Assembly (NCBI GenBank): GCA_945949035.1
Contig: CAMFDH010000005.1
Span: 1 to 20,457, forward strand
DNA from: an uncultured Actinomyces sp.
Lineage (GTDB): Bacteria; Actinomycetota; Actinomycetes; Actinomycetales; Actinomycetaceae
DNA: 20,457 nucleotides
Reading direction: 5' to 3'
The notes beneath the pieces were generated by a model that was given only the letters and a program-made list of their open reading frames with translations, did not search any database and was not told where the DNA came from. Numbering within the stretch: position 1 is the stretch's first letter; every line of letters begins with the position of its first letter. The translations under genes were made by a program, and so were the position numbers. Below are positions 597 to 20,457 of this stretch, one piece after another.

Positions 597-615
597 ACTA
601 CCGGGCGGTGATTTG

Positions 616-4585: not shown

Positions 4586-4591
4586 GGATCC

Positions 4592-4692: not shown

Positions 4693-4698
4693 TAGGAT
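4693..4698 (+). promoter_or_regulatory. Candidate -10 element of leaderless rph mRNA
   Basis: TAGGAT is followed by 6 bases (GAAGCC) and the rph ATG. This matches TAnnnT plus a start site at the start codon. The AGGA inside it could alternatively be a ribosome-binding site with 8-base spacing, so the assignment is ambiguous. Confidence 0.45.
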
Positions 4699-4704
4699 GA
4701 AGCC

Positions 4705-6889: not shown

Positions 6890-7767
6890 AGGCGCTCCTC
6901 GTCTTCTGTGGTCGCGGCGACCTCCCGTGCACTCGCTGCACTCTCAACCTCGAGCTCTACGGTGAGTGGCTCAACTCCGGATACCTCCGGTCCCAGGAAG
7001 CGGCGGGCCAGGGTCGAAAACTCAGGGTTGGGTGCAGTCGAGTAGAAACGATATGTCGGCGTGTCACCGGGCTGGCGCGGCGAATGCAGCAGGTCGAGGT
7101 CGACGAGGGCGGAGTAGGTTGCGTTGGCTGTGGCTTCCGAAGAGGCGACCAGGCGCACGCCGGGTCCCAACTCTCGTGCCAGAACACCGGTCAGAAGCGG
7201 GTAGTGGGTGCACCCGAGGATCACCGTGTCAACATCGGCCTCAACCAGGGGGGCCAGGTACTCTCGCGCAGCGGCCGTGACGGACTCACCTGTCGTCTCG
7301 CCACGCTCGACGAACTCAACGAACTTTGGGGCACTGCTCTGGGTCACCCTGATCCCTGGAACCGCACCAAGCGCGTCCAGGTACACGCCCGAGCGAACGG
7401 TCGCGGCTGTCCCCAGGACGCCGATGCTGCCGTTGCGGGTGGTTGCTGCTCCCCCACGAGCCGCAGGTGTCACAACCTCTATCACCGGGATACCCATCTT
7501 GGCGTAGCGCTCTCGGGCGTCCCTCAGGGCGGCTGCCGTAGCGGTGTTGCAGGCAATCACCAGGACTTTGCAGCCCAGCTCAACCAGCTGGTCCAGGCCC
7601 GCAAGCGTCAGTTTCCGGACCTCGCTGAGTCTGCGCGGACCGTAGGGCGTATGGGCGCTGTCACCGAGGTAGACGACGTCCTCACCCGGAAGTTGGTCAA
7701 TGATGGCGCGAGCTACCGTCAGGCCGCCCAGGCCTGAGTCAAAAACTCCGATTGGCGCATCGTTCAC
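6886..7767 (-). CDS. murI: Glutamate racemase
   Basis: A 293-residue cofactor-independent racemase that makes D-glutamate for peptidoglycan. The N-terminal block APIGVFDSGLGGLTVARAI contains the conserved Asp-Ser pair. The two catalytic cysteines are in VIACNTATA (Cys73) and LGCTHYPLL (Cys186), and PYGPR is also conserved. I chose GTG 7767 because family proteins begin within a few residues of the GVFDSG motif and TAAAGT stands 7 bases before it (leaderless pattern). The GTG at 7887 would add 40 residues that look unlike coding sequence. A roughly 30-residue acidic tail (EVESAASAREVAATTEDEERL) extends beyond the usual end. The gene is followed in the same operon by the MBL-fold hydrolase. Confidence 0.95.
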   Translation of the reverse strand: MNDAPIGVFDSGLGGLTVARAIIDQLPGEDVVYLGDSAHTPYGPRRLSEVRKLTLAGLDQLVELGCKVLVIACNTATAAALRDARERYAKMGIPVIEVVTPAARGGAATTRNGSIGVLGTAATVRSGVYLDALGAVPGIRVTQSSAPKFVEFVERGETTGESVTAAAREYLAPLVEADVDTVILGCTHYPLLTGVLARELGPGVRLVASSEATANATYSALVDLDLLHSPRQPGDTPTYRFYSTAPNPEFSTLARRFLGPEVSGVEPLTVELEVESAASAREVAATTEDEERL

Positions 7768-7774
7768 GATTCTG

Positions 7775-7780
7775 ACTTTA
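7775..7780 (-). promoter_or_regulatory. Candidate -10 element of leaderless murI mRNA
   Basis: On the minus strand TAAAGT is followed by 7 bases and the GTG of murI. No purine-rich ribosome-binding site is present before this GTG, so leaderless translation is the simplest reading. A CTGACC about 19 bases upstream is a possible -35. Confidence 0.5.
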
Positions 7781-7840
7781 TGACAATTTGAGGGGGTGCG
7801 GTCAGAAAGGTTCGTGAGTCCTCCCACCTCGTGACGCGTT

Positions 7841-7858
7841 CCATTACCGAGGTAACGG
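7841..7858. promoter_or_regulatory. Inverted repeat between murI and pncB, candidate operator
   Basis: CCATTACC and GGTAACGG form 8-base half-sites with one mismatch, separated by 2 bases; the inner TTACC-GA-GGTAA is perfect. It lies about 60 bases upstream of pncB and 70 upstream of murI in their shared 151-base divergent region. It could bind a dimeric regulator; which one is unknown. Confidence 0.4.
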
Positions 7859-7906
7859 TGGCGAATCTGCCAGATAGTTCGTGTCACACCTTGGTCCCAG
7901 AAGGGC

Positions 7907-7912
7907 TACCGT
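7907..7912 (+). promoter_or_regulatory. Candidate -10 element of leaderless pncB mRNA
   Basis: TACCGT is followed by 6 bases and the pncB ATG. There is no ribosome-binding site at normal spacing (an AGAAGG stretch is 14 bases away), which favours a leaderless transcript. Confidence 0.45.
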
Positions 7913-7918
7913 TAGCCT

Positions 7919-9280
7919 ATGGCTGCTTCAGATTCCACTGCCCTGTTGACCGATAAGTATGAGCTGACGATGGTCGACGCCGCGATTCACTCCGGTGTTG
8001 CCAACAGACGCTCTGTCTTTGAGCTGTTTGGGCGCAGGTTCAGTAGTTCCCGCCGCTACGGGGTTGTAGCGGGAACGGGACGCATTCTTGAGGCGCTGGC
8101 GCGCTTCCAGTTCGACGACGACCAGATTGCGTGGTTGGAAGACCAGCGGTTCCTCAGTAAGGAGGCGCTTGATTTCCTAGCTGACTTCAAGTTCTCCGGG
8201 GACATCTACGGCTATGCCGAGGGCGAGATCTATTTTCCGGGCTCCCCCCTCATCACCGTCGAGGGCACATTTGCAGAGGCGACGCTGCTTGAAACACTGC
8301 TGCTTTCTGCCCTGAACTTTGACTGTGCGATCGCCTCTGCGGCCTCACGCATGACCATTGCCGCCCACGGACGCCCCTGCATCGACATGGGGGCGCGTCG
8401 CACCCACGAGCGCGCAGCTGTTTCGGCCGCCCGCGCTTCAGTTATTGGTGGATTTGTCGCCACCTCAGACCTTGAGGCCGGACGCCGGTATGGAATCGAC
8501 ACCGTCGGTACCTCAGCACACTCATTCACTTTGATTCAGGACTCTGAAAAGGATGCGTTTGCCGCGCAGATCGCAACCCTGGGCCCCGGAACCACGCTTC
8601 TGGTGGATACCTACGACATCCACCAGGGAGTCATCAACGGTGTCGAGGCCGCCCGCGCTGCCGGTGGTGAGCTGGGTGCGGTGCGTATCGACTCCGGCGA
8701 CCTCGTAGCTCATGCCTTCCAGGTCCGAGAGCAACTCGATTCCCTGGGGGCCCACTCAACCAAGATTGTCGTCACCTCAGACCTTGATGAGTACGCGATT
8801 GCCTCTCTCGGAGCGGCCCCTGTCGATACCTACGGTGTGGGCACAAAGCTTGTCACCGGATCCGGTGTCCCAACTGCCGCCCTGGTCTACAAGCTTGTCG
8901 AGCGTGAGGGGCAAAACGGAGAGTCGATTCCCGTTGCGAAACTCAGCGAGTCGAAGGGAACCGTTGGCGGTCGCAAGGTTGCCGGACGCCTCTACAGCCC
9001 CGACGGCCGCGCGGTGCAGGAAGCCCTGGTCATGGGCGCCTCAACTGAAGAGAGCACCAAGCGTCTGGAGGACGCGGGGGCCCGCCTGCTGCAGGTTCCC
9101 CTGGTGAAGGACGGGGCGATTCTTGCGGAAGGCTGGACACCGGAAGCCACCCTTCAGGCCCAGGAGCGCCACCGCATCTCTCGCAATGAGCTCCCCTACC
9201 AGGCTTGGCGACTCTCAGATGGCGAACCCGGGGTTCGCACCCGCTACTACGACGCTGAGACACCGATCGAACGGTTCTAG
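7919..9280 (+). CDS. pncB: Nicotinate phosphoribosyltransferase
   Basis: A 453-residue enzyme of NAD salvage that converts nicotinate and PRPP to nicotinate mononucleotide, with ATP hydrolysis. It shows the N-terminal ALLTDKYELTMVDA, the ETLLLSALNFDCAIASAASR helix, DMGARRTHE, and GTSAHSF with His201, the residue that is transiently phosphorylated in this family. LVDTYD and the IRIDSGDL-like segment (VRIDSGDL) are PRPP-site elements. The length is normal for the actinobacterial type. It diverges from murI. In mycobacteria pncB1 also lies a few genes from murI with clpS beside it; no clpS is present here. The downstream gene is convergent after 31 bases. Confidence 0.96.
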   Translation: MAASDSTALLTDKYELTMVDAAIHSGVANRRSVFELFGRRFSSSRRYGVVAGTGRILEALARFQFDDDQIAWLEDQRFLSKEALDFLADFKFSGDIYGYAEGEIYFPGSPLITVEGTFAEATLLETLLLSALNFDCAIASAASRMTIAAHGRPCIDMGARRTHERAAVSAARASVIGGFVATSDLEAGRRYGIDTVGTSAHSFTLIQDSEKDAFAAQIATLGPGTTLLVDTYDIHQGVINGVEAARAAGGELGAVRIDSGDLVAHAFQVREQLDSLGAHSTKIVVTSDLDEYAIASLGAAPVDTYGVGTKLVTGSGVPTAALVYKLVEREGQNGESIPVAKLSESKGTVGGRKVAGRLYSPDGRAVQEALVMGASTEESTKRLEDAGARLLQVPLVKDGAILAEGWTPEATLQAQERHRISRNELPYQAWRLSDGEPGVRTRYYDAETPIERF

Positions 9281-9311
9281 GTCGAGGTAGCGGGCACGAC
9301 GCCCAGTTCAG

Positions 9312-9584
9312 TTACTCGGCGAAAGGCCAGTTCTTTCCCTGGTTGCCGACCTCATCGCGCAGTGCCTTGCAGCGTGGGCAGACAGGGTACTTCTTCGCAT
9401 CCCGGGTGGGAACCCAGACCTTGCCGCAGAGGGCGACCACAGCCTGGCCCGTAATCGCAGCCTGGTTAGCGCGGTCCTTACGCACAAAGTGCGCGAAGCG
9501 ATCCGCGTCCCCGTCACCCTTGCTGGGCTTGACCTTCGGCAGTTCGAGGACGTCTGAGCCTCCCAGAGGGGCCTGCTGAGTCAT
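9312..9584 (-). CDS. DUF3039 domain protein, small cysteine-containing protein
   Basis: A 90-residue protein with the hallmark segment VVALCGKVWVPTRDAKKYPVCPRCK (about 49-73). Three cysteines in this region (a lone Cys, then CPRC) suggest a zinc-binding knuckle. This is the DUF3039 family, widespread in actinobacteria and of unknown function. The start is only 5 bases after the nagB stop, and its likely ribosome-binding site (GAGGAC) lies inside the last nagB codons, so translation is probably coupled. It has no signal peptide or membrane segment. The functional link with nagB is not evident from the sequence. Confidence 0.85.
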   Translation of the reverse strand: MTQQAPLGGSDVLELPKVKPSKGDGDADRFAHFVRKDRANQAAITGQAVVALCGKVWVPTRDAKKYPVCPRCKALRDEVGNQGKNWPFAE

Positions 9585-9589
9585 GGCTA

Positions 9590-10381
9590 TCAGTCCTCGA
9601 GGGCGGAGAGAGCCTGCTCGCCCTCATACGCCGCGCGGTAGTAGTCCTTCAGCTTCAGTTTGGAAGCTGCGGCCTCATCCACCAGGATCGTTGCGTCATT
9701 GTGGAACTGCAGGACCGAAGCCGGCCACAGTGCACTGACGCCACCCTCAACAAGAGCAGCAACGGCGTCCGCCTTCTGCTCACCCTGGGCAATCAGGACC
9801 ACAGACTTGGCGCGGCCAATAGTTGCCAGTCCCTGGGTCAGGCAGAAGCGTGGCACCTGGTTGATGTCTCCGTCGAAAAAGCGAGCGTTATCCACGCGGG
9901 TCTGCTCGGTGAGGACCTGGGTGTGGGTGGTAGATGAGAGCGAGCCACCAGGCTCATTGAAGGCAATGTGTCCATCGGTGCCAATGCCAAGGATCTGCAG
10001 GTCAACACCGCCTGAAGCCACAATCTTCGCCTCATACTCATCCGCGGCCCTCTTCGGGTTCGCCGCGTTGCCGTCCGGGCCGTTGACCGCGCCCTCGGCA
10101 AAGTCGACCTTAGAGACGAACACCCGCTTGATGAACTCTGCATACGACTCGGGGTGGCCCTTGGGCAGGCCAACATACTCATCCAGCAGGAAGGCGGTGG
10201 CGTCCTTGAATGACACCTCACCGGCCTCATAGCGACGAATCAGTTCGTCGTAGACGGGAACGGGCGATGAACCGGTGGCAAGTCCGAGAACCGCGTTCGG
10301 CTTGCTTGCCAGCAGGTTGGTGTAAAGGTCAGCGGCGGCCTTTGCGATCTCTTCGGTCGACGACAAGATGACGATGTTCAT
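9590..10381 (-). CDS. nagB: Glucosamine-6-phosphate deaminase
   Basis: A 263-residue enzyme that converts glucosamine-6-phosphate to fructose-6-phosphate and ammonia, the last step of amino-sugar catabolism. The phosphate loop LATGSSP (34-40), the DEYVGLP motif with Asp67, and LGIGTDGHIAFNEPG with Asp136, His138 and Glu143 match the catalytic set known from E. coli NagB. The ATG is preceded by CAGGAG with 6-base spacing. nagA and an amino-sugar transporter are not adjacent. The gene ends with two in-frame stops in a row (TGA TAG) and is followed by the DUF3039 gene. Confidence 0.96.
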   Translation of the reverse strand: MNIVILSSTEEIAKAAADLYTNLLASKPNAVLGLATGSSPVPVYDELIRRYEAGEVSFKDATAFLLDEYVGLPKGHPESYAEFIKRVFVSKVDFAEGAVNGPDGNAANPKRAADEYEAKIVASGGVDLQILGIGTDGHIAFNEPGGSLSSTTHTQVLTEQTRVDNARFFDGDINQVPRFCLTQGLATIGRAKSVVLIAQGEQKADAVAALVEGGVSALWPASVLQFHNDATILVDEAAASKLKLKDYYRAAYEGEQALSALED

Positions 10382-10434
10382 TCACAGCTCCTGAAGCGGG
10401 GTTGGTGAGTACTACCGTCCAATCTTAAGCCCGA

Positions 10435-10467
10435 AGCGGGGGTGAGGAAACTTTCCCCACCCCCGCT
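10435..10467 (-). terminator. Hairpin terminator downstream of hup
   Basis: Two 16-base arms (10435-10450 and 10452-10467) are almost perfectly complementary. On the minus strand the only exception is a G-U pair, while on the plus strand it is an A-C mismatch, so the structure suits transcripts coming from hup. It lies 64 bases past the hup stop and before the nagB start. The closing loop is very tight and no clear U-tract follows. Confidence 0.6.
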
Positions 10468-10530
10468 ACGAAGGTTTGCTATGTGTTCCGCCGGTTTCGC
10501 ACCCTTAGGTCACGAAAGTGGCGAGTCACA

Positions 10531-10812
10531 CTACTTTCCTACGGCTGCCTTAAGCGTCGAACCTGCGGTGAGCTTCACGCCAAAGCCAGCAGGAATCTGA
10601 ATTTCCTCACCGGTGCGCGGGTTGCGACCGGTGCGAGCAGCGCGCTCGACGCGCTCTACCGACAGCAGACCGGTTACGCGAACCGACTCGCCCTCTGACA
10701 GAGCATCAATGATTACGGACTGGAACGCTCCAAGGGCGGAATCAGCCTGGGCCTTGGTCAAACCCGAACGTTCAGCCATCTGTGCAACGAGTTCAGTGCG
10801 ATTGATCGACAT
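10531..10812 (-). CDS. hup: HU-family nucleoid DNA-binding protein
   Basis: A 93-residue histone-like protein that binds and bends DNA without strong sequence specificity as a dimer. The N-terminal helices (NRTELVAQMAERSGLTKAQAD) are followed by the beta arm with the intercalating-proline motif GRNPRTGEEI (62-71) and the end KLTAGSTLKAAV. It lacks the long lysine/alanine-rich tail of mycobacterial HupB and so is of the short type. A good ribosome-binding site (AGAGGA, complement of 10819-10824) precedes ATG. The gene has its own promoter at 10867-10895 and a hairpin terminator, so it is probably monocistronic. Confidence 0.96.
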   Translation of the reverse strand: MSINRTELVAQMAERSGLTKAQADSALGAFQSVIIDALSEGESVRVTGLLSVERVERAARTGRNPRTGEEIQIPAGFGVKLTAGSTLKAAVGK

Positions 10813-10866
10813 TAGTCATCCTCTTGGTAGGTGAAGCAACTCAAGCCACTGACGTGACATACGGAA

Positions 10867-10895
10867 ACGCTACACATCAAAGGGTGGTTTGTCAG
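10867..10895 (-). promoter_or_regulatory. SigA-type promoter of hup
   Basis: On the minus strand CTGACA (5 of 6 to TTGACA) and TAGCGT (TAnnnT) are separated by exactly 17 bases. Transcription would start near 10860, giving a leader of about 48 bases that contains the AGAGGA ribosome-binding site of hup. Confidence 0.6.
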
Positions 10896-10940
10896 GTCCC
10901 AACCGTTGAAATGCCGCGCATTGTGGCAAATTACGCCAGG

Positions 10941-12470
10941 TTAGCCACCGATCTCTTCAGCAAGCTTCGCCAGCAGCCTCGCGCCGAAGCCGGTTGCGCC
11001 CCGACGAACCCAGCGATCATCCTTAGAACTGACCGATGGGCCAGCAATATCAACGTGGACCCAGGGCACATCTGCGACGAAGTTCGACAGGAACAGACCG
11101 GCCGTAATGCTGCCCGCTCCCCTGTTGGACAGGTTGGCGTTCTGCAGGTCAGCCAGCGGCGATTCCATGTTCTTCATGTAGCGCTTGTGCAGCGGCAGCT
11201 CCCAGACCATTTCACCGGTCGCGTCTGCGGCCTGCTCGACCTCATCCAGCAGTGCGTCACTGTTGCCCATCACAGCGGCGACGTCATCACCGAGGGCGAT
11301 GATCTGGGCGCCGGTCAGGGTCGCGATATCGACGATCCACGCGGGGTTGGTCTCGGCTGCAAGAGCCAGGGCATCCATGAGGATCAGGCGACCCTCGGCA
11401 TCGGTGTTGGTGACCTCAACGGTCTTGCCGTTACGTGCGGTAATGATCTCGCCGACTCGCATGGAGTTACCCGAAATCATGTTGTCCGTGGTGGGCAGCC
11501 ACGCATCAACCGGCGTGGTGACCCCGAGGTCGACCATGGCTGAGAAAGCACCCAGGATCGCTGCGGCGCCACCCATATCCGTCTTCATATCAACCATCGA
11601 CGAGGCGGGCTTCAGGCTGAGGCCTCCCGAGTCGAAGGTGATTCCCTTGCCAACCATGGCGAGGCGCTCGGCAGAAGCAGGGGTGTCGGCGGGAACGAAA
11701 CGCAGCTTGATGAGGCGGGCTTCGTACTCGGAACCACGGTTCACTCCAACGATGCCGCCACAGCCCATTTCAACCAGCTCGAGACGATCGATCACCTCGG
11801 CCTCAAAACCGAACTCATCGGCAAGTCGTACCGCAACTTCCGCGAGGGTCCGAGGGGTCAGGTGCGCAGGAGGTGCGTTCGTCAGGTCGCGGGCAATGTA
11901 GGTTGCGCGCGCGTAGGCCACGGCTCGGTGCAGTACGACCTCGAACAGCTCGCTTACGTCCGCCTCGCCCCCGGCAATCGTCAGGGAGGCGAGGGGCTTG
12001 GCCCTGTCGTCCTCATTCTTGAACGACGACAGCGAGTAGTTGGCGAGAAGAACGCCCTCGACAACAGCCTGAGCCTGGGTCGGAATGGTCGCTTCAGTCA
12101 GGACCACACACACCTGGGTTCGCTTGCCAAGTGCGCCGGATACGGCGGCGCCGGCCTCACGGTACGCATCATCATCCAGACCGTCCTCGTCACCAAGGCC
12201 AACGAAGATCGTGGTGGCACCGGTCGTGGAAGGAACGGTCATCGTCTGGCCAAGCTTGGCTTCGAACCCAGCCCCCGCCAGGGACTCGAGGTCCCAGCCT
12301 TCGACCGGCGCACCCGCCGAGTCGGAGGTGACCAGGTAGGCAACTGCGCAGGCCGAGTCGGTCTTGCAGGTAATGTCCTCTTCCGACGCGAGGTAGCGCA
12401 GCGACAGATTGCTGAGGGCGCTCAGGCCGGGAAGTAGATCGATGTTGTAAGAATCGTGTACCGAAACCAC
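10941..12470 (-). CDS. pepA: Leucyl aminopeptidase (M17 family)
   Basis: A 509-residue cytoplasmic metallo-aminopeptidase that removes N-terminal residues from peptides, with two metal ions in each subunit of a hexamer. The M17 catalytic domain shows VGKGITFDSGGLSLKP (about 273-288), MKTDMGGAAA and the signature NTDAEGRLILMDAL (355-368), which together supply the lysine, aspartate and glutamate metal ligands and the active-site arginine. The N-terminal domain is the variable macro-like part. I chose GTG 12470 because AGGTGG (complement of 12479-12484) stands 8 bases before it; GTG 12482 is the longer alternative, without a ribosome-binding site. It diverges from the formate-channel gene across about 170 bases. 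Confidence 0.94.
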   Translation of the reverse strand: MVSVHDSYNIDLLPGLSALSNLSLRYLASEEDITCKTDSACAVAYLVTSDSAGAPVEGWDLESLAGAGFEAKLGQTMTVPSTTGATTIFVGLGDEDGLDDDAYREAGAAVSGALGKRTQVCVVLTEATIPTQAQAVVEGVLLANYSLSSFKNEDDRAKPLASLTIAGGEADVSELFEVVLHRAVAYARATYIARDLTNAPPAHLTPRTLAEVAVRLADEFGFEAEVIDRLELVEMGCGGIVGVNRGSEYEARLIKLRFVPADTPASAERLAMVGKGITFDSGGLSLKPASSMVDMKTDMGGAAAILGAFSAMVDLGVTTPVDAWLPTTDNMISGNSMRVGEIITARNGKTVEVTNTDAEGRLILMDALALAAETNPAWIVDIATLTGAQIIALGDDVAAVMGNSDALLDEVEQAADATGEMVWELPLHKRYMKNMESPLADLQNANLSNRGAGSITAGLFLSNFVADVPWVHVDIAGPSVSSKDDRWVRRGATGFGARLLAKLAEEIGG

Positions 12471-12629
12471 GGAATAAACCACCTAACAGAGATTTGGTGC
12501 GGCAAACTGCCGCCACCCTCCATGTTAGGCGACCTCTAACCATGGCGATAGGCCGCCGGTGAGCGCGGTATCGGTCACGTCGGGCCCCGACTGGGACGAA
12601 GTGGCCAGATCGGTCCCCGGGCGGTCTGG

Positions 12630-12635
12630 CAGGAT
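12630..12635 (+). promoter_or_regulatory. Candidate -10 element or ribosome-binding site before the formate channel gene
   Basis: CAGGAT followed by 6 bases and GTG resembles the TAGGAT-6-ATG layout of rph, but the first base departs from TAnnnT. AGGA could equally serve as a ribosome-binding site. Kept at low confidence for that reason. Confidence 0.3.
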
Positions 12636-12641
12636 CTAGGC

Positions 12642-13466
12642 GTGCTAACACTCTCTGAAAACCTCGATTTGCAAGCCAATACCGCGGTGGCCAAAGTCGA
12701 TTCTCTAAGGAAGCCCGGTCGGCTCTTCGTCTCGGGAATGATGGCGGGCATCTACATGGGTATCGGCGTCATCCTCATGGTCTCCACCGCCGGTCCTCTT
12801 TTTGCCGCAGGCGACGGCTTCGGCAAGCTGGTCAGCGGACTGGTCTTTGGTGCGGCCCTGACCCTGACGGTGTTCGCCGGCGCTGACCTCGCAACCTCGG
12901 CCATGATGATCCTGCCGCTGGGTGTGTTGATGAGGACGACGCGCCTGGGTCAGTCTGCCGCCACGCTCGGCTTCATCGTCCTCGCCAACGCGGTTGGTGC
13001 ACTCTTCTTCGGGGCCCTCATTGTCGCGTCGGGGGTGCTGGTATCAAATCAAGCTGCCGGGACGATGCTTTCTGACATGTTGGCCAGCAAGGCGGCTGAG
13101 AGTCCCCTTGAACTTTTCACACGCGGCGTCCTCTGCAATGTCCTGGTCTGCCTTGCCATCTGGATGTCATCGCGCGTCAGGTCAGACGGCACGAAGATCG
13201 CCCTTATCTTTGTGGCCATCACCGCGTTCATCGCCTCGGGATACGAACACGTGGTCGCCAACATGACGACCTACACCATCGGAATCCTCACCGGTGATCC
13301 GAACGGAACGCTCGCCCTCTACGGATACAACTTCCTCTGGGTGGGCCTGGGGAACCTGGTCGGAGGCGCCGTGGTGGTAGCCCTCGCCTACTGGGTCATC
13401 GGAGGGCGTCCTCGCCTCGACACCCTGGTCGAAGCCCCCGCGAGTGAGCGTGCAACCGTCAAATAG
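12642..13466 (+). CDS. focA: Formate/nitrite transporter, FocA-type
   Basis: A 274-residue pentameric membrane channel of the FNT family with six hydrophobic segments in each subunit. It follows E. coli FocA closely: GADLATSAMMI (80-90; FocA has GADLFTS), CNVLVCLAIWMS (165-176), and ASGYEHVVANM (198-208), whose His203 matches the central-pore histidine of FocA. It ends GLGNLVGGAVVVALAYW. This points to formate export or import, and so to mixed-acid fermentation; NirC-type nitrite transport is less likely but not excluded. No pyruvate formate-lyase gene is adjacent. The start is GTG. The next gene, on the same strand, begins 108 bases later with its own ribosome-binding site. Confidence 0.88.
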   Translation: MLTLSENLDLQANTAVAKVDSLRKPGRLFVSGMMAGIYMGIGVILMVSTAGPLFAAGDGFGKLVSGLVFGAALTLTVFAGADLATSAMMILPLGVLMRTTRLGQSAATLGFIVLANAVGALFFGALIVASGVLVSNQAAGTMLSDMLASKAAESPLELFTRGVLCNVLVCLAIWMSSRVRSDGTKIALIFVAITAFIASGYEHVVANMTTYTIGILTGDPNGTLALYGYNFLWVGLGNLVGGAVVVALAYWVIGGRPRLDTLVEAPASERATVK

Positions 13467-13574
13467 TGCCGATTTCGGCCCTGGACCATCCCTATCGTGA
13501 CATGGTGGAGCAGCAGGCGATCCGCCCGGGTTAAATAGCCTAGCGAATAATTGTGCACATTTAAGGAGTGGACT

Positions 13575-14369
13575 ATGTCCGACCAGGTCAAGGTAGTCAA
13601 ACCTAGGAAGCAGAACGCCTTCACCAGGGGTGTCGCCGGATGCTTCTCACCCGAAGCCATGTTCGCAACCATGGCTATCGAGTTCATAGGCGCGGCCTGG
13701 ATCGCACTGCGCTACAGGTTCAACCGAACCGGATTGCTCACCATCTCCCTGCTCGTCTTCCTGGGGATCTTCCAGCTGGCTGAGTTCCTGGTTTGCGAGA
13801 CCGTGGTGACCGGACTCTCCTGGGCCCGCATCGGCTACATGTCCATCACTATGCTGCCGCCTCTTGGCATCAGCCTGGCCATGTCGATTGCCGGAAAGAA
13901 GTCCCTGATCGGCCAGATCGTCATGTACGTGGGTGCCGGCCTTTTCATCTTCTACTGGGGTTTCACCGGCTGGGGCATCACCTCCGATAAGTGCGAGGGC
14001 AACTACGTCTTCTTCCAGGCTGCCAATGATGCCATGTGGCTCTACGGCACCTACTATTACGTCCTCCTTGGAATCGGTACCTTCCTGTCGTTCTGGTTGG
14101 GAAGTAAGATCGCTGAGCGGAAGACCCGGCACGCCCTCTACTGGCTGGCCATTGGCTACCTGGTCTTCATCATCCCGACCACCGCCGTCGCCGTAATTGA
14201 TCCCGCCACCCGCTCCTCGATCCCCTCGGTCATGTGTGGCTTCGCTGTCCTGCTCGCCCTCGTCCTCATCTTCGCTGTCATCCCAATGGCTGGGACCAAG
14301 CGCCCCTGGGGAAATGCGCCTGTCGAGGGCGACGGCGCCAAAAAACACGATGACGAGCTGGTTGGCTAA
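13575..14369 (+). CDS. Seven-helix integral membrane protein of unknown function
   Basis: A 264-residue protein whose ATG follows AAGGAG with 6-base spacing. Seven hydrophobic segments can be read: about 29-46, 52-72, 79-101, 112-133, 156-173, 185-206 and 214-236. A short basic N-terminus and a charged C-terminal tail (EGDGAKKHDDELVG) flank them. Residues 22-70 contain GCFSPEAMFA, IALRY and FQLAE, a pattern like the MCFSA...Q..E opening of the DUF6629-type membrane proteins; this resemblance is from memory and tentative. Polar residues within helices (FQLAE, WARIGYM, MLPPLG) suggest a sensor, ligand-binding or transport role rather than an anchor. It follows focA and converges on the exonuclease gene 16 bases away. 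Confidence 0.75.
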   Translation: MSDQVKVVKPRKQNAFTRGVAGCFSPEAMFATMAIEFIGAAWIALRYRFNRTGLLTISLLVFLGIFQLAEFLVCETVVTGLSWARIGYMSITMLPPLGISLAMSIAGKKSLIGQIVMYVGAGLFIFYWGFTGWGITSDKCEGNYVFFQAANDAMWLYGTYYYVLLGIGTFLSFWLGSKIAERKTRHALYWLAIGYLVFIIPTTAVAVIDPATRSSIPSVMCGFAVLLALVLIFAVIPMAGTKRPWGNAPVEGDGAKKHDDELVG

Positions 14370-14385
14370 CTGACGGAGCCTCCGC

Positions 14386-14946
14386 TTAGTTCTGACGGCC
14401 TCTTCGGACAGAGACATGTTTCGACAAGTCGGTAATGTCCAAGAGGTCTGTCAGAGCTAAGAGGATCCCGGCTGCCGCCTCTGCATCAGCCGAGGCATCG
14501 TGGTGTTGAAATGGGGAAAGCCCCAGGTGCGCCGAGACAGAGGGCAACCGGTGTGAGGTAAGATCGAGGTGGGCCTTGGAAAGCCTCAGGGTGCAAACCC
14601 ACTTATTCTTCGGTGGTTCTAGCCCACAGACAGTGTTGGCCTGCTCAATAACGCTGCGGTCAAAGGGCACGTTGTGGGCAACTAGAAGATCATCCCCGAT
14701 GAAGTCCTCGACCTGGCCGGCCACTCGCGCCCATCGGGGTGCTCTCACGACATCCTCCGGGTAGATTCCATGGACTTGGATGTTGCGGTACTCGAAATAG
14801 TCGAGACCAGCAGGAGGACGAACCAGCGATGAGAATCGTTCCACCACGTGACCTGCTCTGACTCTGACCAGTCCAACGGCGCAGACGGACCCCCTCTTGG
14901 CGTTGGCCGTTTCAAAATCGATGGCCGTAAACGAAACTCGCGTCAC
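14386..14946 (-). CDS. DEDDh 3'-5' exonuclease (DnaQ/epsilon-like)
   Basis: A 186-residue stand-alone exonuclease of the DnaQ fold. The metal-binding set is complete: Asp10 and Glu12 in FTAIDFETAN, Asp96 in HNVPFDRSVIE, and the ExoIII motif HDASAD with His149 and Asp154. It likely degrades DNA or RNA from 3' ends; whether it acts in proofreading, repair or RNA turnover cannot be told. No BRCT, helicase or GIY-YIG domain is attached, unlike larger actinobacterial relatives. The start is GTG, preceded by a GAAGAAG purine stretch. It diverges from the DUF624 gene and converges with the membrane protein gene. Confidence 0.9.
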   Translation of the reverse strand: MTRVSFTAIDFETANAKRGSVCAVGLVRVRAGHVVERFSSLVRPPAGLDYFEYRNIQVHGIYPEDVVRAPRWARVAGQVEDFIGDDLLVAHNVPFDRSVIEQANTVCGLEPPKNKWVCTLRLSKAHLDLTSHRLPSVSAHLGLSPFQHHDASADAEAAAGILLALTDLLDITDLSKHVSVRRGRQN

Positions 14947-15020
14947 AGATACTCACTTCTTCAAGAACCCTCCCAACCCTAGCGGTGGATAGGGCGGCGT
15001 ACTTCCCGCCGGCGACCAAC

Positions 15021-15026
15021 TAAGCT
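15021..15026 (+). promoter_or_regulatory. Candidate -10 element of leaderless DUF624 gene mRNA
   Basis: TAAGCT is followed by 7 bases and the GTG start of the DUF624 gene. No ribosome-binding site is visible in front of this GTG, so a leaderless transcript fits. Confidence 0.45.
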
Positions 15027-15033
15027 CAAGCCT

Positions 15034-15660
15034 GTGTTCGCCCGACTATTTAATCCAGACGCCCCCTTTTGGGTAGCGGTTGGACGTATCGCTGACCTGG
15101 TGTGGCTCAACGTCCTCTTCGTCCTGACCTGCCTCCCCATCGTCACCGCGGGAGGCGCACTTACCGCCCTTTACGACACCGTGTGGCGTCTCGGAGAGGA
15201 TCGCGGCGGATCTGTGACGCGAGAGTACTGGAGGTCCCTGAGGGAAAACTTCTGGCGTAGCACCGGCTACTGGGCATTCTTCCTCCCGATCGGCGGCGCC
15301 CTCACCCTCAGCTGGATCGCGCTACCAATCGCTGAGTTGGCTGTGATCAAGGTGCTTCTGACGCTGGTCTACCTGATTGTTTTTCCATTCCCCTGGTTCC
15401 TCCAGGCCCGCTTTTCCAACACATTTTGGGGAACACTGAAGAACTCGGTGGTTATTCCACTGGTACGGCTCCCCTTCGCCTTCGGAGTCGTCCTCATCAA
15501 CATCGTGCTCCTATGCCTGGTGATCTGGACCATCATCGATCTTCCCCAGATCATCCCTCTCTTCGTTCTAGCCGGGTTCGCCTTCCCCACCGCTGCCTCA
15601 ATGCCCCTGCTTAATCGGGCTATTTCGCCGTGGACCGGCACCTCAACCGAGGAGGCATAG
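15034..15660 (+). CDS. DUF624 (YesL-family) membrane protein
   Basis: A 208-residue protein with the family opening FNPDAPFWVAVGRIADLVWLNVLFVLTCLPIVTAG: an aromatic segment, then the first membrane helix ending in the typical LPIVTAG. Further hydrophobic stretches lie at about 75-93, 100-122, 140-165 and 170-190, giving four to five helices. YesL/DUF624 proteins are found next to sugar ABC transporters in Firmicutes and actinobacteria and are thought to assist uptake or its control, but their biochemical role is not known. Here the binding-protein gene begins 202 bases downstream behind its own operator, so the two may be separately controlled. A hairpin follows the stop. Confidence 0.88.
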   Translation: MFARLFNPDAPFWVAVGRIADLVWLNVLFVLTCLPIVTAGGALTALYDTVWRLGEDRGGSVTREYWRSLRENFWRSTGYWAFFLPIGGALTLSWIALPIAELAVIKVLLTLVYLIVFPFPWFLQARFSNTFWGTLKNSVVIPLVRLPFAFGVVLINIVLLCLVIWTIIDLPQIIPLFVLAGFAFPTAASMPLLNRAISPWTGTSTEEA

Positions 15661-15674
15661 GCACTTCTACCCAG

Positions 15675-15700
15675 AGGCGCCGGCGAACAGGCTGGCGCCT
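15675..15700 (+). terminator. Hairpin downstream of the DUF624 gene
   Basis: Arms 15675-15684 and 15691-15700 pair over 10 positions including one G-U, with a 6-base loop, 14 bases past the stop. No U-tract follows, so it may need a factor or act as a 3' protector. Confidence 0.5.
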
Positions 15701-15756
15701 TCGTGGCAACTAGTAAATCGAGCCCCGAGGGATGTGCAAAAGGTTTCTCAGCCAGG

Positions 15757-15762
15757 TACTCT
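15757..15762 (+). promoter_or_regulatory. Possible -10 element of the sugar-uptake operon
   Basis: TACTCT fits TAnnnT and would place the start of transcription about 8 bases before the palindromic operator, a position suited to repression. The -35 region is poor, so this is a weak call. Confidence 0.25.
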
Positions 15763-15776
15763 AGAGCCGTCGACGT

Positions 15777-15794
15777 TCCGGAAACGTTTCCGGA
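15777..15794. promoter_or_regulatory. LacI-family operator (perfect 18-base palindrome)
   Basis: TCCGGAAACGTTTCCGGA is identical to its reverse complement and contains the GAAACGTTTC core with central CG typical of LacI-family operators. It ends 68 bases before the ATG of the binding-protein gene. The LacI-family gene at the end of the same locus is the obvious candidate to bind it; that pairing is inferred. Confidence 0.8.
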
Positions 15795-15862
15795 GACTTG
15801 AGCACCGCACTCATAGTGGAGTGAGACTGTCAAAACCGACTCTTCTTTCAGGAGACACATTA

Positions 15863-17224
15863 ATGAACAAGAAGTTCGTAAGAATCGCTGCCAGCAGCGC
15901 CGCTGTGGCCCTACTGGCCGGCACAATGACTGCTTGCAGCAGTAGCTCTGACACCCCGGCCTCCGGCGACGCTGGTGGGGATGCAAGTGAGGGGCAGGTC
16001 TACTACCTGAACTTCAAGCCAGAAGTTGCAGATGCATGGAAGGCACTCGCCAAGACCTACACCGAGGAGACCGGTGTTCCGGTCACCGTGGAGACCGCAG
16101 CTTCAGGCACCTACGATGCCACTCTGAAGTCAGAGATGGCCAAGTCCGGTGCTCCGACGCTGTTCCAGGTGGGCGGACCAGTCGGTCTTTCCGTTTGGGA
16201 CGACTACACGGCTGACCTGTCCGGAAGCGCTATCTACAGCAGCCTCAAGGACGAGAGCATGGCCCTGAAGAACTCTGATGGCGTGGTCAAGGGTGTTCCC
16301 TACGTCGTCGAGACCTACGGCATCATCTACAACAAGCAGCTCCTCAATGAGTACATCGCCCTCCCCGATGCCGCAGTCAAGTCGGTAGATGAGATCAACA
16401 ACTTTGACACGCTGAAGGCAGTTGCTGAGGGAATCCAGGCGAACAAGGAAGCCCTGGGAGTAGAGGGCGCATTCACCTCTGCAGGATTTGATTCCTCCTC
16501 CGACTGGCGCTTCAAGACGCACCTGGCGAACATTCCCCTGTACTACGAGTTCGAGGAGACCGGTGTAACCGGCCAGCCGGAGACACTCGAGGGTACCCAT
16601 ATGGACAACTACCAGGCCATCTTCGACCTGTACATCAACAACTCGACCACTGAGCCCTCGCTACTCTCCGGTAAGACCATTGACGATGCGAACTCTGAGT
16701 TCGCCCTCGGCAAGGCCGTCTTCTACCAGAACGGCACCTGGGCTTACAACGACATCAAGGATGCGTCAGTAGCCGATGAGGACCTCGGGATGCTCCCCAT
16801 CTACATTGGTGCCGAAGGTGAAGAGATGCAGGGTCTGGCAACTGGCTCTGAGAACTTCTGGGTCATCAACTCACAGGCATCAGAGGCCGATCAGAAGGCT
16901 TCCCTGGACTTCCTTGAGTGGGTCATTACCTCTGACGCTGGCCGCGAAGCCATCACCAACACCATGGGCTTCGTAACCCCGTTCTCAACCTTCGAGGGCT
17001 ACGAGTCAACCAACCCGCTGATCCTTGCTGACAACGAGTACTTCGCTGCAGGCAAGACCCCGGTTTCATGGAACTTCACCGTCATGCCTTCTGACGAATG
17101 GAAGAACGGCGTTGGACAGGCCCTCCTTGGTTACGCTCAGGGCAACAACGACTGGGAGACCGTGCGCGCTGCCTACGTGGACAACTGGGCCAACGAAGTA
17201 GCCCTCTCCACCTCAGGCGAGTAG
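15863..17224 (+). CDS. Sugar ABC transporter substrate-binding lipoprotein
   Basis: A 453-residue family 1 (MalE-like) extracellular binding protein. ATG 15863 is preceded by AGGAGA with 7-base spacing. A signal peptide is clear: MNKKFVR, a hydrophobic stretch, then TMTACSSSS, whose cysteine (27) should be lipidated and anchor the protein to the outer face of the membrane. A Ser/Gly/Asp-rich linker follows. The mature part starts VYYLNFKPEVADAWKALAKTYTEETG, as usual in this family, and includes GVPYVVETYGIIYNK and FWVINSQASE. The many aromatic residues suit an oligosaccharide ligand, but the sugar cannot be named. It is first in the operon with two permeases and is separated from them by a strong hairpin. 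Confidence 0.93.
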   Translation: MNKKFVRIAASSAAVALLAGTMTACSSSSDTPASGDAGGDASEGQVYYLNFKPEVADAWKALAKTYTEETGVPVTVETAASGTYDATLKSEMAKSGAPTLFQVGGPVGLSVWDDYTADLSGSAIYSSLKDESMALKNSDGVVKGVPYVVETYGIIYNKQLLNEYIALPDAAVKSVDEINNFDTLKAVAEGIQANKEALGVEGAFTSAGFDSSSDWRFKTHLANIPLYYEFEETGVTGQPETLEGTHMDNYQAIFDLYINNSTTEPSLLSGKTIDDANSEFALGKAVFYQNGTWAYNDIKDASVADEDLGMLPIYIGAEGEEMQGLATGSENFWVINSQASEADQKASLDFLEWVITSDAGREAITNTMGFVTPFSTFEGYESTNPLILADNEYFAAGKTPVSWNFTVMPSDEWKNGVGQALLGYAQGNNDWETVRAAYVDNWANEVALSTSGE

Positions 17225-17245
17225 CTACACCCAGCTAGAAGATAT

Positions 17246-17278
17246 GTCCCGGGATACCAAGTGTTGGTATCCCGGGAC
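17246..17278 (+). other. 15-bp perfect hairpin between binding-protein and permease genes
   Basis: Arms 17246-17260 and 17264-17278 are perfectly complementary around a GTG loop. The structure lies 21 bases after the binding-protein stop and 22 before the permease start. Such hairpins protect the upstream mRNA or cause partial termination, giving more binding protein than permease. The following TCTTAAAT is not a strong U-tract. Confidence 0.75.
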
Positions 17279-17300
17279 TCTTAAATCACAAGGAAAACCG

Positions 17301-18140
17301 ATGCACAAATCCTTCAATCGGTGGGGGGCGCTGTTCGCAGGACCTACAGTCATCGCCTTCATGATTGGGTTCGTGATCCCATTCTTCATGGGTCTATACC
17401 TGTCCTTCACCCGCTTCACGACAGTCACCTCCTCGAAGTGGGTGGGCCTAGATAACTACAAGGCCATCCTCGGTGACTCAAACTTCGTCCACTCGCTCTG
17501 GTACACCTCACTCTTCACCATCGCCACAACGATCATCATTAACGTGATTGCCTTCGCCATCGCATACATGCTGGTGAAAGCCATCAAGGGTCGGAATATC
17601 TTCCGCTCGGTCATCTTCATGCCGAACCTCATCGGCGGCATCGTGCTCGGTTGGATCTGGCTCCTGCTTCTCAACGGAGTTCTAGCCCACTGGGCACGAA
17701 CCATCGTCACCAGTAGCACCGATGCTTTCTGGGGCATGGTCATCGTCACCTCATGGCAGCAGATCGGCTACATGATGGTCATCTACATTGCAGGGTTGCA
17801 GTCGATTCCGACTGATGTTCTGGAGGCAGCGAAGGTGGATGGAGCAAACGGCAGGCAAACCCTGCGCCAGGTTGTTCTTCCCCTGGTCATGCCCTCGATC
17901 ACCGTGTGTACGTTCCTCACACTGACCTCGGGCTTCAAGATGTTTGACCTCAACCTCTCCCTCACCAATGGCGCTCCCGGAAGGGGTTCTGAGCTTCTCG
18001 CGCTCAATATTTTCAACACCTTCTATGGACGACCCGGGTTCGAGGGCGTTGGCCAGGCTAAAGCAGTGATCTTCCTGATCATTGTCGCTGTCATTGCTCT
18101 GATTCAGAACCGCTATGCCCGGTCGAAGGAGAACGTCTGA
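17301..18140 (+). CDS. Sugar ABC transporter permease (MalF-like)
   Basis: A 279-residue inner-membrane subunit with about six helices. ATG 17301 has AAGGA 6 bases upstream; the longer open frame from 17244 reads through the hairpin and is not credible. The family opening FAGPTVIAFMIGFVIPFFMGLYLSF is followed by GLDNYKAI. The cytoplasmic EAA loop, which docks the ATPase, reads PTDVLEAAKVDGANGRQTLRQVVLPLVMPS. It forms a heterodimer with the next gene's product, and the stop and start of the two genes overlap by one base (TGATG), showing coupling. No ATPase subunit is encoded in the locus. Confidence 0.94.
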   Translation: MHKSFNRWGALFAGPTVIAFMIGFVIPFFMGLYLSFTRFTTVTSSKWVGLDNYKAILGDSNFVHSLWYTSLFTIATTIIINVIAFAIAYMLVKAIKGRNIFRSVIFMPNLIGGIVLGWIWLLLLNGVLAHWARTIVTSSTDAFWGMVIVTSWQQIGYMMVIYIAGLQSIPTDVLEAAKVDGANGRQTLRQVVLPLVMPSITVCTFLTLTSGFKMFDLNLSLTNGAPGRGSELLALNIFNTFYGRPGFEGVGQAKAVIFLIIVAVIALIQNRYARSKENV

Positions 18141-18973
18141 TGACTGATGTGAAACGCCCCCGCGCATGGACCGTATTTTTCTCGATCCTCTCGATCGCCT
18201 ATCTGTTCCCAATCATCCTGGTGGTGATCAACTCCTTCAAGGGGAAGATCTACATCAATGACAACCCATTCGCACTCCCGAACTCAACGTCTTTTGCTGG
18301 GTTTGAGAACTATCTGCGTGGGATCGCACAGACCGACTTCTGGATGACAATCATCTGGTCGCTGGTGATTACCGTTGGCTCGGCATTCTGGATCCTTCTA
18401 TTCACCTCGATGACCGCCTGGTGGATCGTCCGTGCCAACACCAAGTTTGCGATGTTCCTCTACGTCGTGTTCCTGTTCTCCATGGTGGTTCCCTTCCAGA
18501 TGGTCATGTTTACCCTGTCGTGGTTGACGGACTTCCTCGGACTGGGAAATCCAGTTGGACTGTGGATCATCTACCTGGGTTTTGGTGCAGGACTTGCCGT
18601 CTTCATCTTCACGGGTTTCGTCAAGGCGATTCCCTACGAGTTGGAGGAAGCAGCTCGCATCGATGGTTGTGGGCCAATCCGCACCTACTTCCTCGTGGTG
18701 TTCCCTGTGCTCAAGCCAGCGGTGATCACTGTCGCGATCCTCGAGGTGATGTGGCTGTGGAACGACTACCTACTCCCCTACCTCACTCTTGATCTGAAGA
18801 AGTACAAGACCATTCCAATCGCGGTCCAGTACCTCAAGGGTGGTTTTGGAACTGTCGACATGGGGTCGATGATGGCCATTTTGGTTTTGGCCATCATTCC
18901 CGTGGTGATCTTCTACCTGTTCAGCCAGAAACACATTATTGAAGGTGTGATTTCTGGTGCGGTGAAGGGGTAA
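18140..18973 (+). CDS. Sugar ABC transporter permease (MalG-like)
   Basis: A 277-residue partner permease. After a short basic N-terminus come a first helix (VFFSILSIAYLFPIILVVINSF), the WWIVRAN segment, VPFQMVMF, and the EAA loop PYELEEAARIDGCGPIRTYFLVVFPVLKP, then the conserved WNDYLLP of MalG-type subunits. The length is normal. Its ATG overlaps the stop of the preceding permease by one base. An 11-bp hairpin follows 6 bases past its stop, before the LacI-family gene. Confidence 0.94.
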   Translation: MTDVKRPRAWTVFFSILSIAYLFPIILVVINSFKGKIYINDNPFALPNSTSFAGFENYLRGIAQTDFWMTIIWSLVITVGSAFWILLFTSMTAWWIVRANTKFAMFLYVVFLFSMVVPFQMVMFTLSWLTDFLGLGNPVGLWIIYLGFGAGLAVFIFTGFVKAIPYELEEAARIDGCGPIRTYFLVVFPVLKPAVITVAILEVMWLWNDYLLPYLTLDLKKYKTIPIAVQYLKGGFGTVDMGSMMAILVLAIIPVVIFYLFSQKHIIEGVISGAVKG

Positions 18974-18979
18974 GCGTAT

Positions 18980-19013
18980 TGGTGGGGAGGTAGCCTTTGG
19001 GTCCTCCCCACCA
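18980..19013 (+). terminator. Hairpin between the permease operon and the LacI-family gene
   Basis: Perfect 11-bp arms (18980-18990 and 19003-19013) enclose a 12-base loop, just after the permease stop. There is no good U-tract. It could terminate most transcripts while letting some read through into the regulator gene, for which I see no clear separate promoter. Confidence 0.6.
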
Positions 19014-19029
19014 CACCATTTGGAATCTC

Positions 19030-20103
19030 ATGATCACTATCAAAGAGCTGGCCTCAATCTGCGGGGTCTCTATAAGCACGGTCTCAAGAGCCATGAATGG
19101 CCGTGAGGACGTCAACCCTGAGACTCGCAAAGCCGTACAGAACGCGGCAAAGAAGTACGGTTACGTGCCGAACACGGCAGCCCGAAACCTCAAGCGCCCC
19201 CCGTCACGCACCATCGCAGTGATTGTCCAGGGTGAGACCTCGCCACTCCTCATGCAGGGCCTGGTGAAACTGGACGAGTCCCTACGCACTGAAGGCTATG
19301 AAGCAATCCTCTGCCATGTTTCCGATCGTCGGGCCAATGTCGCCACGATCGAGAATCTCATTGTTGGCGGACACTACTCCGGAGCTATCTTTCTAGGACG
19401 CTACGGCGACGATGACGGTGTCCAGGCGACCGAGTTGAGTAAGTCGCTCGCACGCATGAAGGTTCCCCTTGTTTTCTGCACGACCAAGGACTTCTCTGGA
19501 TCTTCACTTCGCCACCCTTCCGTGTCGGTGGATGATGTTGGAGGCTCGATAAGAGTCACCAAGCACCTGATTGAACAGGGGCATACACGCATCGGATTCG
19601 CCCTCATCAACCCCCATGTTCCCCCTGAAAGCGAGCATGTGTGGATGCTTCGCTTCCAGGGTTTCAAACGCGCACTCAGGGAACACGGAATAGAGCCCGA
19701 CCCTGACTTGGAGATTGTCGCCGTCGATCACAGCCAGCCGTACTCCATGGCAAACGCGTACGCCTCTACTATGCACTGGCTCGAGTCACGGAGCCATGAC
19801 TACACAGCGATCGTGTCTTCCTGTGATGCGGTGGCCGTGGGTGTGATTAGAGCACTAAATGATGAGGGCATCAGAGTCCCCGAGATGGTGTCTGTGACTG
19901 GGTTTGATGGTCTTGACTTTGGCCGTTACGCCAACCCTTCACTAACCACTCTGATTCAACCCATTGACCTGATCGCCAAGTACACCGTCTCATCGCTTCT
20001 AAAAGCGATTGCCGGTGACTCACCTACGCCCCCGCACCATGCTGTTGAAGGGGAGTTCTACCTGGGAGAATCAACCGCTCCCCTGTCGAGAGACGGTGAC
20101 TAG
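19030..20103 (+). CDS. LacI-family transcriptional regulator
   Basis: A 357-residue regulator. The N-terminal helix-turn-helix (TIKELASICGVSISTVSRAM, residues 3-22) is followed by the hinge helix (YVPNTAARNLKR, about 45-56) and a periplasmic-binding-protein-like sensor domain (TIAVIVQG onward, including VSVDDVGGS, DAVAVGVIRALNDEGI and VTGFDGLDFGRYANPSLTTL). It should bind a palindromic operator as a dimer and release it, or bind it, when a sugar is present. ATG 19030 places the helix-turn-helix at the usual distance from the N-terminus; GTG 18997 would start inside the upstream hairpin loop. The ribosome-binding site is weak (GGAA). It most likely controls the adjacent uptake operon through the palindrome at 15777-15794. 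Confidence 0.93.
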   Translation: MITIKELASICGVSISTVSRAMNGREDVNPETRKAVQNAAKKYGYVPNTAARNLKRPPSRTIAVIVQGETSPLLMQGLVKLDESLRTEGYEAILCHVSDRRANVATIENLIVGGHYSGAIFLGRYGDDDGVQATELSKSLARMKVPLVFCTTKDFSGSSLRHPSVSVDDVGGSIRVTKHLIEQGHTRIGFALINPHVPPESEHVWMLRFQGFKRALREHGIEPDPDLEIVAVDHSQPYSMANAYASTMHWLESRSHDYTAIVSSCDAVAVGVIRALNDEGIRVPEMVSVTGFDGLDFGRYANPSLTTLIQPIDLIAKYTVSSLLKAIAGDSPTPPHHAVEGEFYLGESTAPLSRDGD

Positions 20104-20138
20104 GGGCAGCCTCCTGCTGGCCCAAACCCACGCAGCAA

Positions 20139-20169
20139 GAACCCCGACATCACAATGATGCCGGGGTTT
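20139..20169. terminator. Rho-independent terminator, likely bidirectional
   Basis: An arm at 20140-20152 pairs with 20156-20168 over 13 positions with one A-C mismatch and a CAA loop; the stem core is ACCCCG/CGGGGT. It is flanked by AAGA on one side and TTTG on the other, so it can end lacI-type transcripts rightwards and RNA-gene transcripts leftwards. Confidence 0.7.
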
Positions 20170-20175
20170 GCTTTG

Positions 20176-20207
20176 TGGAGATGGCGGGAATCGAACCCAT
20201 CCTGGCC
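20176..20207 (-). other. Detached 3' end of a tmRNA/tRNA gene: probable attachment site of an integrated element
   Basis: On the minus strand the sequence reads a T-arm (GGG-TTCGATT-CCC) followed by GCCATCTCCA, the shape of a tmRNA or tRNA 3' end; CATCTCC would pair with a GGGGATG 5' end as in tmRNAs. The rest of the RNA is missing: protein-coding sequence begins about 20 bases further on. The outer T-stem no longer pairs (AT against GC). A terminator lies just beyond its 3' end. Together this is the usual appearance of a duplicated RNA-gene 3' end left at one border of an integrated phage or island. Confidence 0.65.
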
Positions 20208-20226
20208 TTGGATCGTAAGAATCTAT

Positions 20227-20457
20227 CTAGACTCTTGCGGTGTGCTCCATACGTAAATCCAGATCGTATGCTGGACTGAACCTGCTCTCCAGAACGTCAC
20301 GGACGAGCCTCATGGCACTTCCACTGAAGTAGTTACTGTGGGTTACCTTCACTGTCTCCAAAGAGTCTGACCCCACAAGCACGATATCCATGCGGCGGTC
20401 ACTATTCTGTGCATCCCGCTCAGCTTTTTCGTAGGCGTCTGTTGCGGTTCTGGAGTC
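20227..20457 (-). CDS. Unidentified protein, C-terminal 76 residues; possible RelA/SpoT-domain protein tail (5' end outside window)
   Basis: The minus-strand frame is open from the window edge to a TAG at 20227-20229. It reads AYEKAERDAQ, then DIVLVGSDSLETVKVTHSNYF, a short segment, and LVRDVLESRF before an ending rich in charged residues. The order AYxxAE, DIVLV, DS and NYF resembles the C-terminal end of stand-alone RelA/SpoT-domain proteins (which usually read DVVLV...AYPNYF); this is pattern recognition from memory and the synthetase core is out of view. If correct, the protein would handle (p)ppGpp-like nucleotides. It lies immediately inside the presumed att site, so it is probably the last gene of a mobile element. 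Its codon third positions look less GC-rich than those of its chromosomal neighbours. Confidence 0.5.
   Translation of the reverse strand, partial: DSRTATDAYEKAERDAQNSDRRMDIVLVGSDSLETVKVTHSNYFSGSAMRLVRDVLESRFSPAYDLDLRMEHTARV

Follow-up and report, generated by a model that had tools for sequence, protein, structure and literature searches.

An orphan tmRNA 3' end beside a CapRel-type antitoxin-like gene: a probable border of an integrated element in an uncultured Actinomyces sp.

Introduction

Close to the right end of a contig from an uncultured Actinomyces sp., a short piece of sequence on the minus strand resembles the 3' end of a stable RNA gene and is followed, towards the contig end, by a protein-coding gene of lower GC content. 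The locus raises the question of whether a mobile element has been integrated here, into which RNA gene, and with what kind of gene at its border. A first-pass annotation had proposed such a border at a tmRNA or tRNA 3' end, with chromosome on the left side and the element extending rightwards. The available text of the Islander report (PMC4383910) describes 3919 islands integrated into tRNA or tmRNA genes, finds tmRNA more enriched among the integration targets than any tRNA type, and places the T-stem region among the usual crossover zones of the integrases in such RNA genes.

The window, by which we mean the whole stretch of DNA analysed (20,457 nucleotides), is the whole contig C5 of an assembly with 303 contigs and 1.69 Mb that is 85% complete. 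In our reading, an element has very probably inserted at the 3' end of the tmRNA gene; positions 20175–20198 would be its distal border, and a CapRel-type module would lie next to it. The features at the right end of the window are as follows.

20134–20172, minus strand: hairpin, probable terminator (folding z score; same place as the tmRNA hairpin of congener G003)
20175–20198, minus strand: orphan tmRNA 3' end (exact match to the tmRNA 3' ends of congeners)
20199–20226, no strand assigned: spacer between border gene and probable att core, inside the proposed element (alignments to G003 end at 20198)
20227–20457, minus strand: antitoxin-like gene of a CapRel-type pair, its 5' end cut by the contig end (match to the C-terminal part of the PADLOC profile PDC-S33)

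Results

The RNA piece is the 3' end of a tmRNA gene

Positions 20175–20198, read on the minus strand, are letter for letter the last 24 bases of the one-piece tmRNA of congeners, an identity which settles the choice between tmRNA and tRNA in favour of the former. These 24 bases comprise three T-stem bases, the T loop, the 3' strand of the T stem, the 3' strand of the acceptor, the discriminator and one further base; the fragment thus extends to the tmRNA 3' end including the discriminator base, as the Islander approach demands of a displaced fragment. Folding gave three T-stem pairs in the window fragment as opposed to five in the tmRNA of G003, so that identity with the tmRNA breaks off inside the T arm. 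The T arm and acceptor 3' strand that had been seen standing alone are therefore indeed an orphan tmRNA 3' end, which holds only part of the T arm.

By calculation, 2.5e-8 chance copies of the 24-mer are expected in the assembly, and no other copy with up to three mismatches was found elsewhere in it. A 23-base pattern of the segment occurred in 15 of 59 genomes (own included), once in each; at 14 of these loci the segment ends a complete tmRNA called by ARAGORN, and the fifteenth locus is the window itself. Among 213 genomes of the taxonomic family, a 22-base version appeared by pattern match in 38 (own included), again in single copy, and the other 37 showed no second exact copy, so that no precedent was found at the tmRNA site within the family. 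Taken together, the 24 bases are a probable att core, that is, a displaced fragment.

No intact RNA gene ends at the fragment, which the first-pass annotation had named as a point to be checked: ARAGORN called neither a tRNA nor a tmRNA gene in the window, and the Rfam covariance search returned no credible match. In the slice at the contig end no match to RF00023 was obtained, whereas a slice of G003 of equal length, reaching the same distance over its tmRNA, scored 82.6 bits (E 9.4e-33) for this model. An intact tmRNA merely cut by the contig end was rejected on this comparison. The nearest tmRNA-type match in the window was beta_tmRNA (9.7 bits, E 0.52, far under the cut-off of 84), and the best covariance match of the slice was a weak one to a microRNA family (E 0.035); these, like the snoRNA and lncRNA matches, lay far under their gathering scores and were discarded. 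A two-piece or permuted tmRNA was likewise rejected, since ARAGORN called one-piece genes in G001, G002, G003 and G005 and no permuted-tmRNA match appeared in the window.

The 24-mer was also looked for in viral contigs, where it occurred in 50 stretches, 26 of them with an ARAGORN tmRNA around the match. A crude recombinase motif within 4 kb of the match was present in none of the 50, so that the viral contigs offer no attP model, and the junction sequence (fragment plus border DNA) was absent from them.

Terminator and chromosome on the left

The left part of the window was compared with G003, a close relative whose tmRNA gene is intact.

5481–14368, no strand assigned: chromosome collinear with G003 (gene order by tblastn, right end by blastn)
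14369–20134, no strand assigned: stretch with no counterpart in G003 (blastn of the interval)

Ten window genes are found in G003 in the same order with 88–100% protein identity (tblastn; the labels FNT, AcT, NagB, PepA, MurI and similar were assigned by eye), and the right end of this collinear stretch aligns by blastn at 90% over 868 bases. About 195 bases past the last collinear gene, G003 carries its intact tmRNA, an uninterrupted target at the same place; the comparison with a relative lacking the insertion, for which the earlier reading had called, is thereby provided. Positions 14369–20134 amount to 5.77 kb in the window against 156 bases between the same neighbours in G003. Past this stretch the G003 alignment restarts at 20135 and stops at 20198, covering 64 bases at 80% identity, the 24 fully identical bases included. 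The left side is accordingly chromosome, as had been supposed, once the 5.8-kb stretch is passed.

The hairpin at 20134–20172 bears out the terminator that had been placed on the 3' side of the fragment. Its fold z was −5.0 for 20128–20200 on the minus strand and −3.5 for 20110–20175 on the plus strand, and on the minus strand it folded better than 200 of 200 shuffles, as did the G003 hairpin. Outside the 24 identical bases it is about two-thirds identical to the tmRNA hairpin of G003; a simple terminator scan for T runs did not list it. It is probably the terminator of the original tmRNA gene, and now probably also serves the border gene and, for transcripts arriving from the left, the LacI-type gene.

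The 5.8-kb stretch encodes an exonuclease-like protein, a DUF624 protein, a solute-binding protein, two permeases and a LacI-type regulator (five of the six named by Pfam; the first permease, 17244–18140, by eye). Relatives of the transport genes with 69–74% DNA identity sit elsewhere in G003, G004 and G005, so that the window copy is not an orthologue in place, and a scan of genome contigs with the LacI-type protein as query gave a single, distant locus.

As this stretch is missing from the same place in G003 and has a GC content of 56.0% against 61.5% for bases 1–14369, the sugar-transport genes might themselves be the insert, with chromosome on the right side. We regard this as the least credible of the alternatives, close to negligible. 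With the tmRNA on the minus strand, its 3' fragment marks an element to the right; a hairpin at the place of the G003 tmRNA terminator separates the stretch from the fragment; neither a second fragment left of the hairpin nor any tmRNA fragment at about 14370 was found; no integrase was seen in the 5.8 kb; and a relative of the border gene exists in only one of five congeners, about 380 kb from its tmRNA. An element extending rightwards, as first proposed, agrees with the strand of the tmRNA 3' fragment, with the lower-GC gene to its right and with the end of the G003 alignment at 20198.

Two observations on the stretch may be recorded. Between the solute-binding-protein and first permease genes, 17245–17279 (plus strand) is a 15-base inverted repeat with a 3-base loop and a fold z of −5.05, for which the Rfam listing of mir-551 is a chance match. 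In other sugar-transport operons an intercistronic mRNA hairpin favours the binding protein, and this is probably its role here too. At the opening of the stretch, 14386–14946 (minus strand) encodes a DEDDh exonuclease-like protein (RNase_T by Pfam) that matches PADLOC PDC-S48 (E 6.9e-32) and a Cas-associated DEDDh profile (E 1.1e-30); the DNA of this gene gave a single 37-base match (in G001) among five congeners.

The border gene encodes an antitoxin-like protein

The gene beyond the fragment has its stop codon at 20227–20229 and 76 codons within the window. It had been described as foreign-looking and about 20 bases away: its foreign look stands, given a GC content of 51.7% for 20199–20457 against 61.5% for bases 1–14369, but the distance is 28 bases. 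The piece present matches positions 288–331 of PDC-S33 (E 1.1e-5), and the accessory or defence gene anticipated at the border thus takes the form of an antitoxin-like gene. No Pfam match was obtained for it; it matches phrog_22117, of unknown function (E 3e-7).

A complete copy, P0015, has 102 amino acids, is 99% identical to the border-gene piece and matches positions 266–330 of the 349 of PDC-S33 (E 3.8e-7). It is listed for two contigs, possibly from the same sample as the window, the longest of which has 1465 bases, so that neither is the window's contig. As a separate observation, 20230–20283 (minus strand), which adjoins the probable att core, encodes about 18 C-terminal residues in excess of most of ten aligned relatives. 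A literal YXXY (Y..Y) occurs in one of 45 proteins of the border-gene family and is absent from P0015. Searched against the PDB with E values up to 10 allowed, the profile of these small proteins matched none of the CapRel chains.

Most relatives follow a RelA/SpoT-type match

The family profile matched in 14 of 396 genomes of the order and 10 of 396 genomes of the phylum (own included in both). A RelA/SpoT-type tblastn match lies upstream on the same strand at 10 of the 13 non-own order loci (the exceptions being L140, L141 and L142), at seven of nine phylum loci (not at L171 and L174; the match at L170 is weak) and at all six loci in viral contigs (two with identical gene pairs). Over all sets, such a match precedes the antitoxin relative at 23 of 28 loci. 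One viral copy of the pair is located between RecT and large-terminase genes. Queries with the antitoxin against 50,697 phage records found no match, and those against plasmids found one weak match (Vibrio, 40% identity, E 3e-3).

The upstream partner in the viral copy beside RecT is a protein of 238 residues, RelA/SpoT by Pfam, which matches positions 8–232 of PDC-S33 (E 3e-49) and shares 27.5% identity with the annotated RelA/SpoT protein of phage SJ46. Its best PDB matches (9e-18) were 9erv and 7ztb, both structures of CapRel SJ46 according to the consulted parts of PMC9712102 and PMC11578894. Since the partner and the small protein match the N-terminal and C-terminal parts of PDC-S33, respectively, together they look like one fused protein in split form. 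We infer that PDC-S33 stands for CapRel-like proteins, from the N-terminal match to the 7ztb-like toxin, and the border gene would then look like the antitoxin of an unfused CapRel-type toxin–antitoxin pair. A 340-amino-acid frame that hinted at a fused form was rejected because it lies in a different frame from the toxin match.

Among the 59 genomes (own included), G003 alone holds another relative of the border gene. At its locus (L031, 995–1668) an incomplete RelA/SpoT-type frame is followed by an 84-amino-acid antitoxin-like gene, an arrangement that, from its sequence, looks like a decayed CapRel-type pair.

At four loci in four genomes (L135 600–1743, L136 639–1719, L175 399–1686 and L140 1320–1698) a complete tRNA gene stands roughly 100–250 bases upstream of CapRel-type genes on the same strand, although L140 gave no toxin match and the toxin start at L175 is estimated. 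At five of 22 non-own genome loci, leaving out L139 with its doubtful 98-nt call, a tRNA gene and the antitoxin relative are no more than about 1.5 kb apart; set against ten non-adjacent tRNAs in 381 kb, this has a Poisson chance of 0.04, and an enrichment of tRNA genes near CapRel-type genes is too weak to claim. Seven relative loci, L135, L136 and L140 among them, were examined over 381 kb in all; four of them contributed the 14 tRNA calls. No tRNA end recurred as an exact copy and no crude integrase motif turned up around them, so that tRNA-bounded elements are not proven there.

The far side in the assembly

No intact tmRNA was found in the 85%-complete assembly, and neither the 5' part of the tmRNA nor smpB had a DNA match in it. 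In G003, whose tmRNA starts with GGGGATG as the first-pass annotation had expected of the intact gene, the 5' side continues with smpB-, M23 peptidase-, ftsX-, ftsE- and prfB-like genes (named by eye). A G003 query from the terminator to ftsE matched in the assembly only 20135–20198, contig C183 and one short stretch of C131. C183 starts inside the M23-like gene after smpB, 1.38 kb beyond the 5' end of the tmRNA in G003. Its start and the end of C5, compared with G003, place the two contigs face to face across a gap, in which the element, the tmRNA and smpB should be.

The sole PF00589 recombinase of the assembly is flanked by dprA- and rpsB-like genes (named by eye) and looks like the chromosomal xerC; no island-type integrase was seen in the assembly, nearly all of the element being outside the contig. 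The sole RelA/SpoT protein found, a synthetase of 255 residues, sits beside galactokinase- and NUDIX-like genes (named by eye) and was rejected as partner of the border gene.

Neither an intact tmRNA nor smpB was found here, and a deletion or illegitimate recombination, without any site-specific enzyme, might have truncated the gene and left no intact copy. Such a rearrangement is very improbable in our judgement, because tmRNA is nearly universal in bacteria, because the assembly is 85% complete and the missing stretch is the very one where element, tmRNA and smpB should be, and because the break falls in the T stem, a usual integrase crossover zone in the available account of PMC4383910.

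The contig stops only 259 bases past the fragment, in an assembly of 303 contigs. Twenty-four bases are within the range of small assembly k-mers. The end of the host tmRNA could consequently have been joined to another sequence through a shared 24-mer, the host tmRNA itself being intact. We consider an artefact of this kind unlikely, if less so than a rearrangement: it needs a further molecule in which these 24 bases adjoin the border gene, which would be an element with the att core; there is no significant tmRNA remnant to the right of the fragment; a relative of the border gene exists in a congener, G003; and the complete 99% copy is found on two contigs of at most 1465 bases (possibly of the same sample).

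Discussion

The integration model is carried by the fragment, by the covariance control and by the synteny. Against it stand the failure to find a second fragment copy, an intact tmRNA or an island-type integrase in the assembly, the lack of a precedent among the family genomes and the modest identity of the hairpin to that of G003; the CapRel assignment has against it the PDB search by sequence, the near-absence of YXXY and the scarcity of matches in phage and plasmid records. An integrative element, probably a prophage or an island with a tyrosine integrase, would have recombined into the tmRNA 3' end, and the 24 bases brought in by the element would have restored an intact tmRNA. On the minus strand the resulting order would be intact tmRNA, element, 24-base fragment, old tmRNA terminator and chromosome, of which the window would hold the fragment, the old terminator, the chromosome and the element's first 259 bases; the rest of the element, its integrase and the intact tmRNA at the far side would lie beyond. 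The border gene reads towards the fragment, so that the old tmRNA terminator could end its transcript. A toxin, presumably a tRNA pyrophosphokinase of RelA/SpoT fold, may be encoded just past the contig end, and the antitoxin would block its activity until a phage protein relieves the block.

The locus resembles the islands described in the available part of the Islander report (PMC4383910) in its displaced 3' fragment reaching the end of the gene, in the break in the T-stem region, in the terminator hairpin on the chromosome side and in an accessory-type gene at the border. It differs from their full signature in that the window holds one border only, intact tmRNA and integrase being absent from the assembly. 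In a similar way, the module is like the unfused CapRel/ATcapRel and PhRel/ATphRel pairs in the consulted sections of PMC9712102, with the small protein corresponding to the C-terminal and the RelA/SpoT partner to the N-terminal part of the profile; as in such pairs of Actinobacteria and phages, its relatives follow a RelA/SpoT-type gene, and some are found in prophage contigs. What sets the window apart from these pairs is that the contig end truncates its border gene and that its toxin would lie outside the contig.

CapRel is an anti-phage toxin–antitoxin system. The same sections of PMC9712102 describe its fused form as the prevailing one outside Actinobacteria and the pair as usually unfused within them, so that the split form is already known. 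Both the type of insertion and the type of cargo are well known. A literature search of partial coverage found no report of a tmRNA integration site with a CapRel-type pair, which is weak evidence. CapRel-type pairs shut down translation by modifying tRNA ends. One could speculate that unfused CapRel-type pairs are regular border cargo at tRNA and tmRNA sites, where the terminator of the RNA gene would end the antitoxin transcript, and that they block the toxin without YXXY; as a general rule this seems doubtful to us, and we would not expect it to hold. In the parts of PMC9712102 and PMC11782079 available to us, YXXY is a neutralisation motif of CapRel SJ46 and of ATfaRel2, whereas 44 of the 45 proteins of the border-gene family are without it.

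Overall, a mobile element that is otherwise missing from the assembly is located here at one of its ends to the exact base, at the strength given above, and the gene adjoining that end is identified. The locus adds an actinobacterial CapRel-type gene, with a predicted function in defence, at an RNA-gene integration site, and that nearly all members of this antitoxin family lack YXXY is a minor point on which the toxSAS neutralisation model can be tested.
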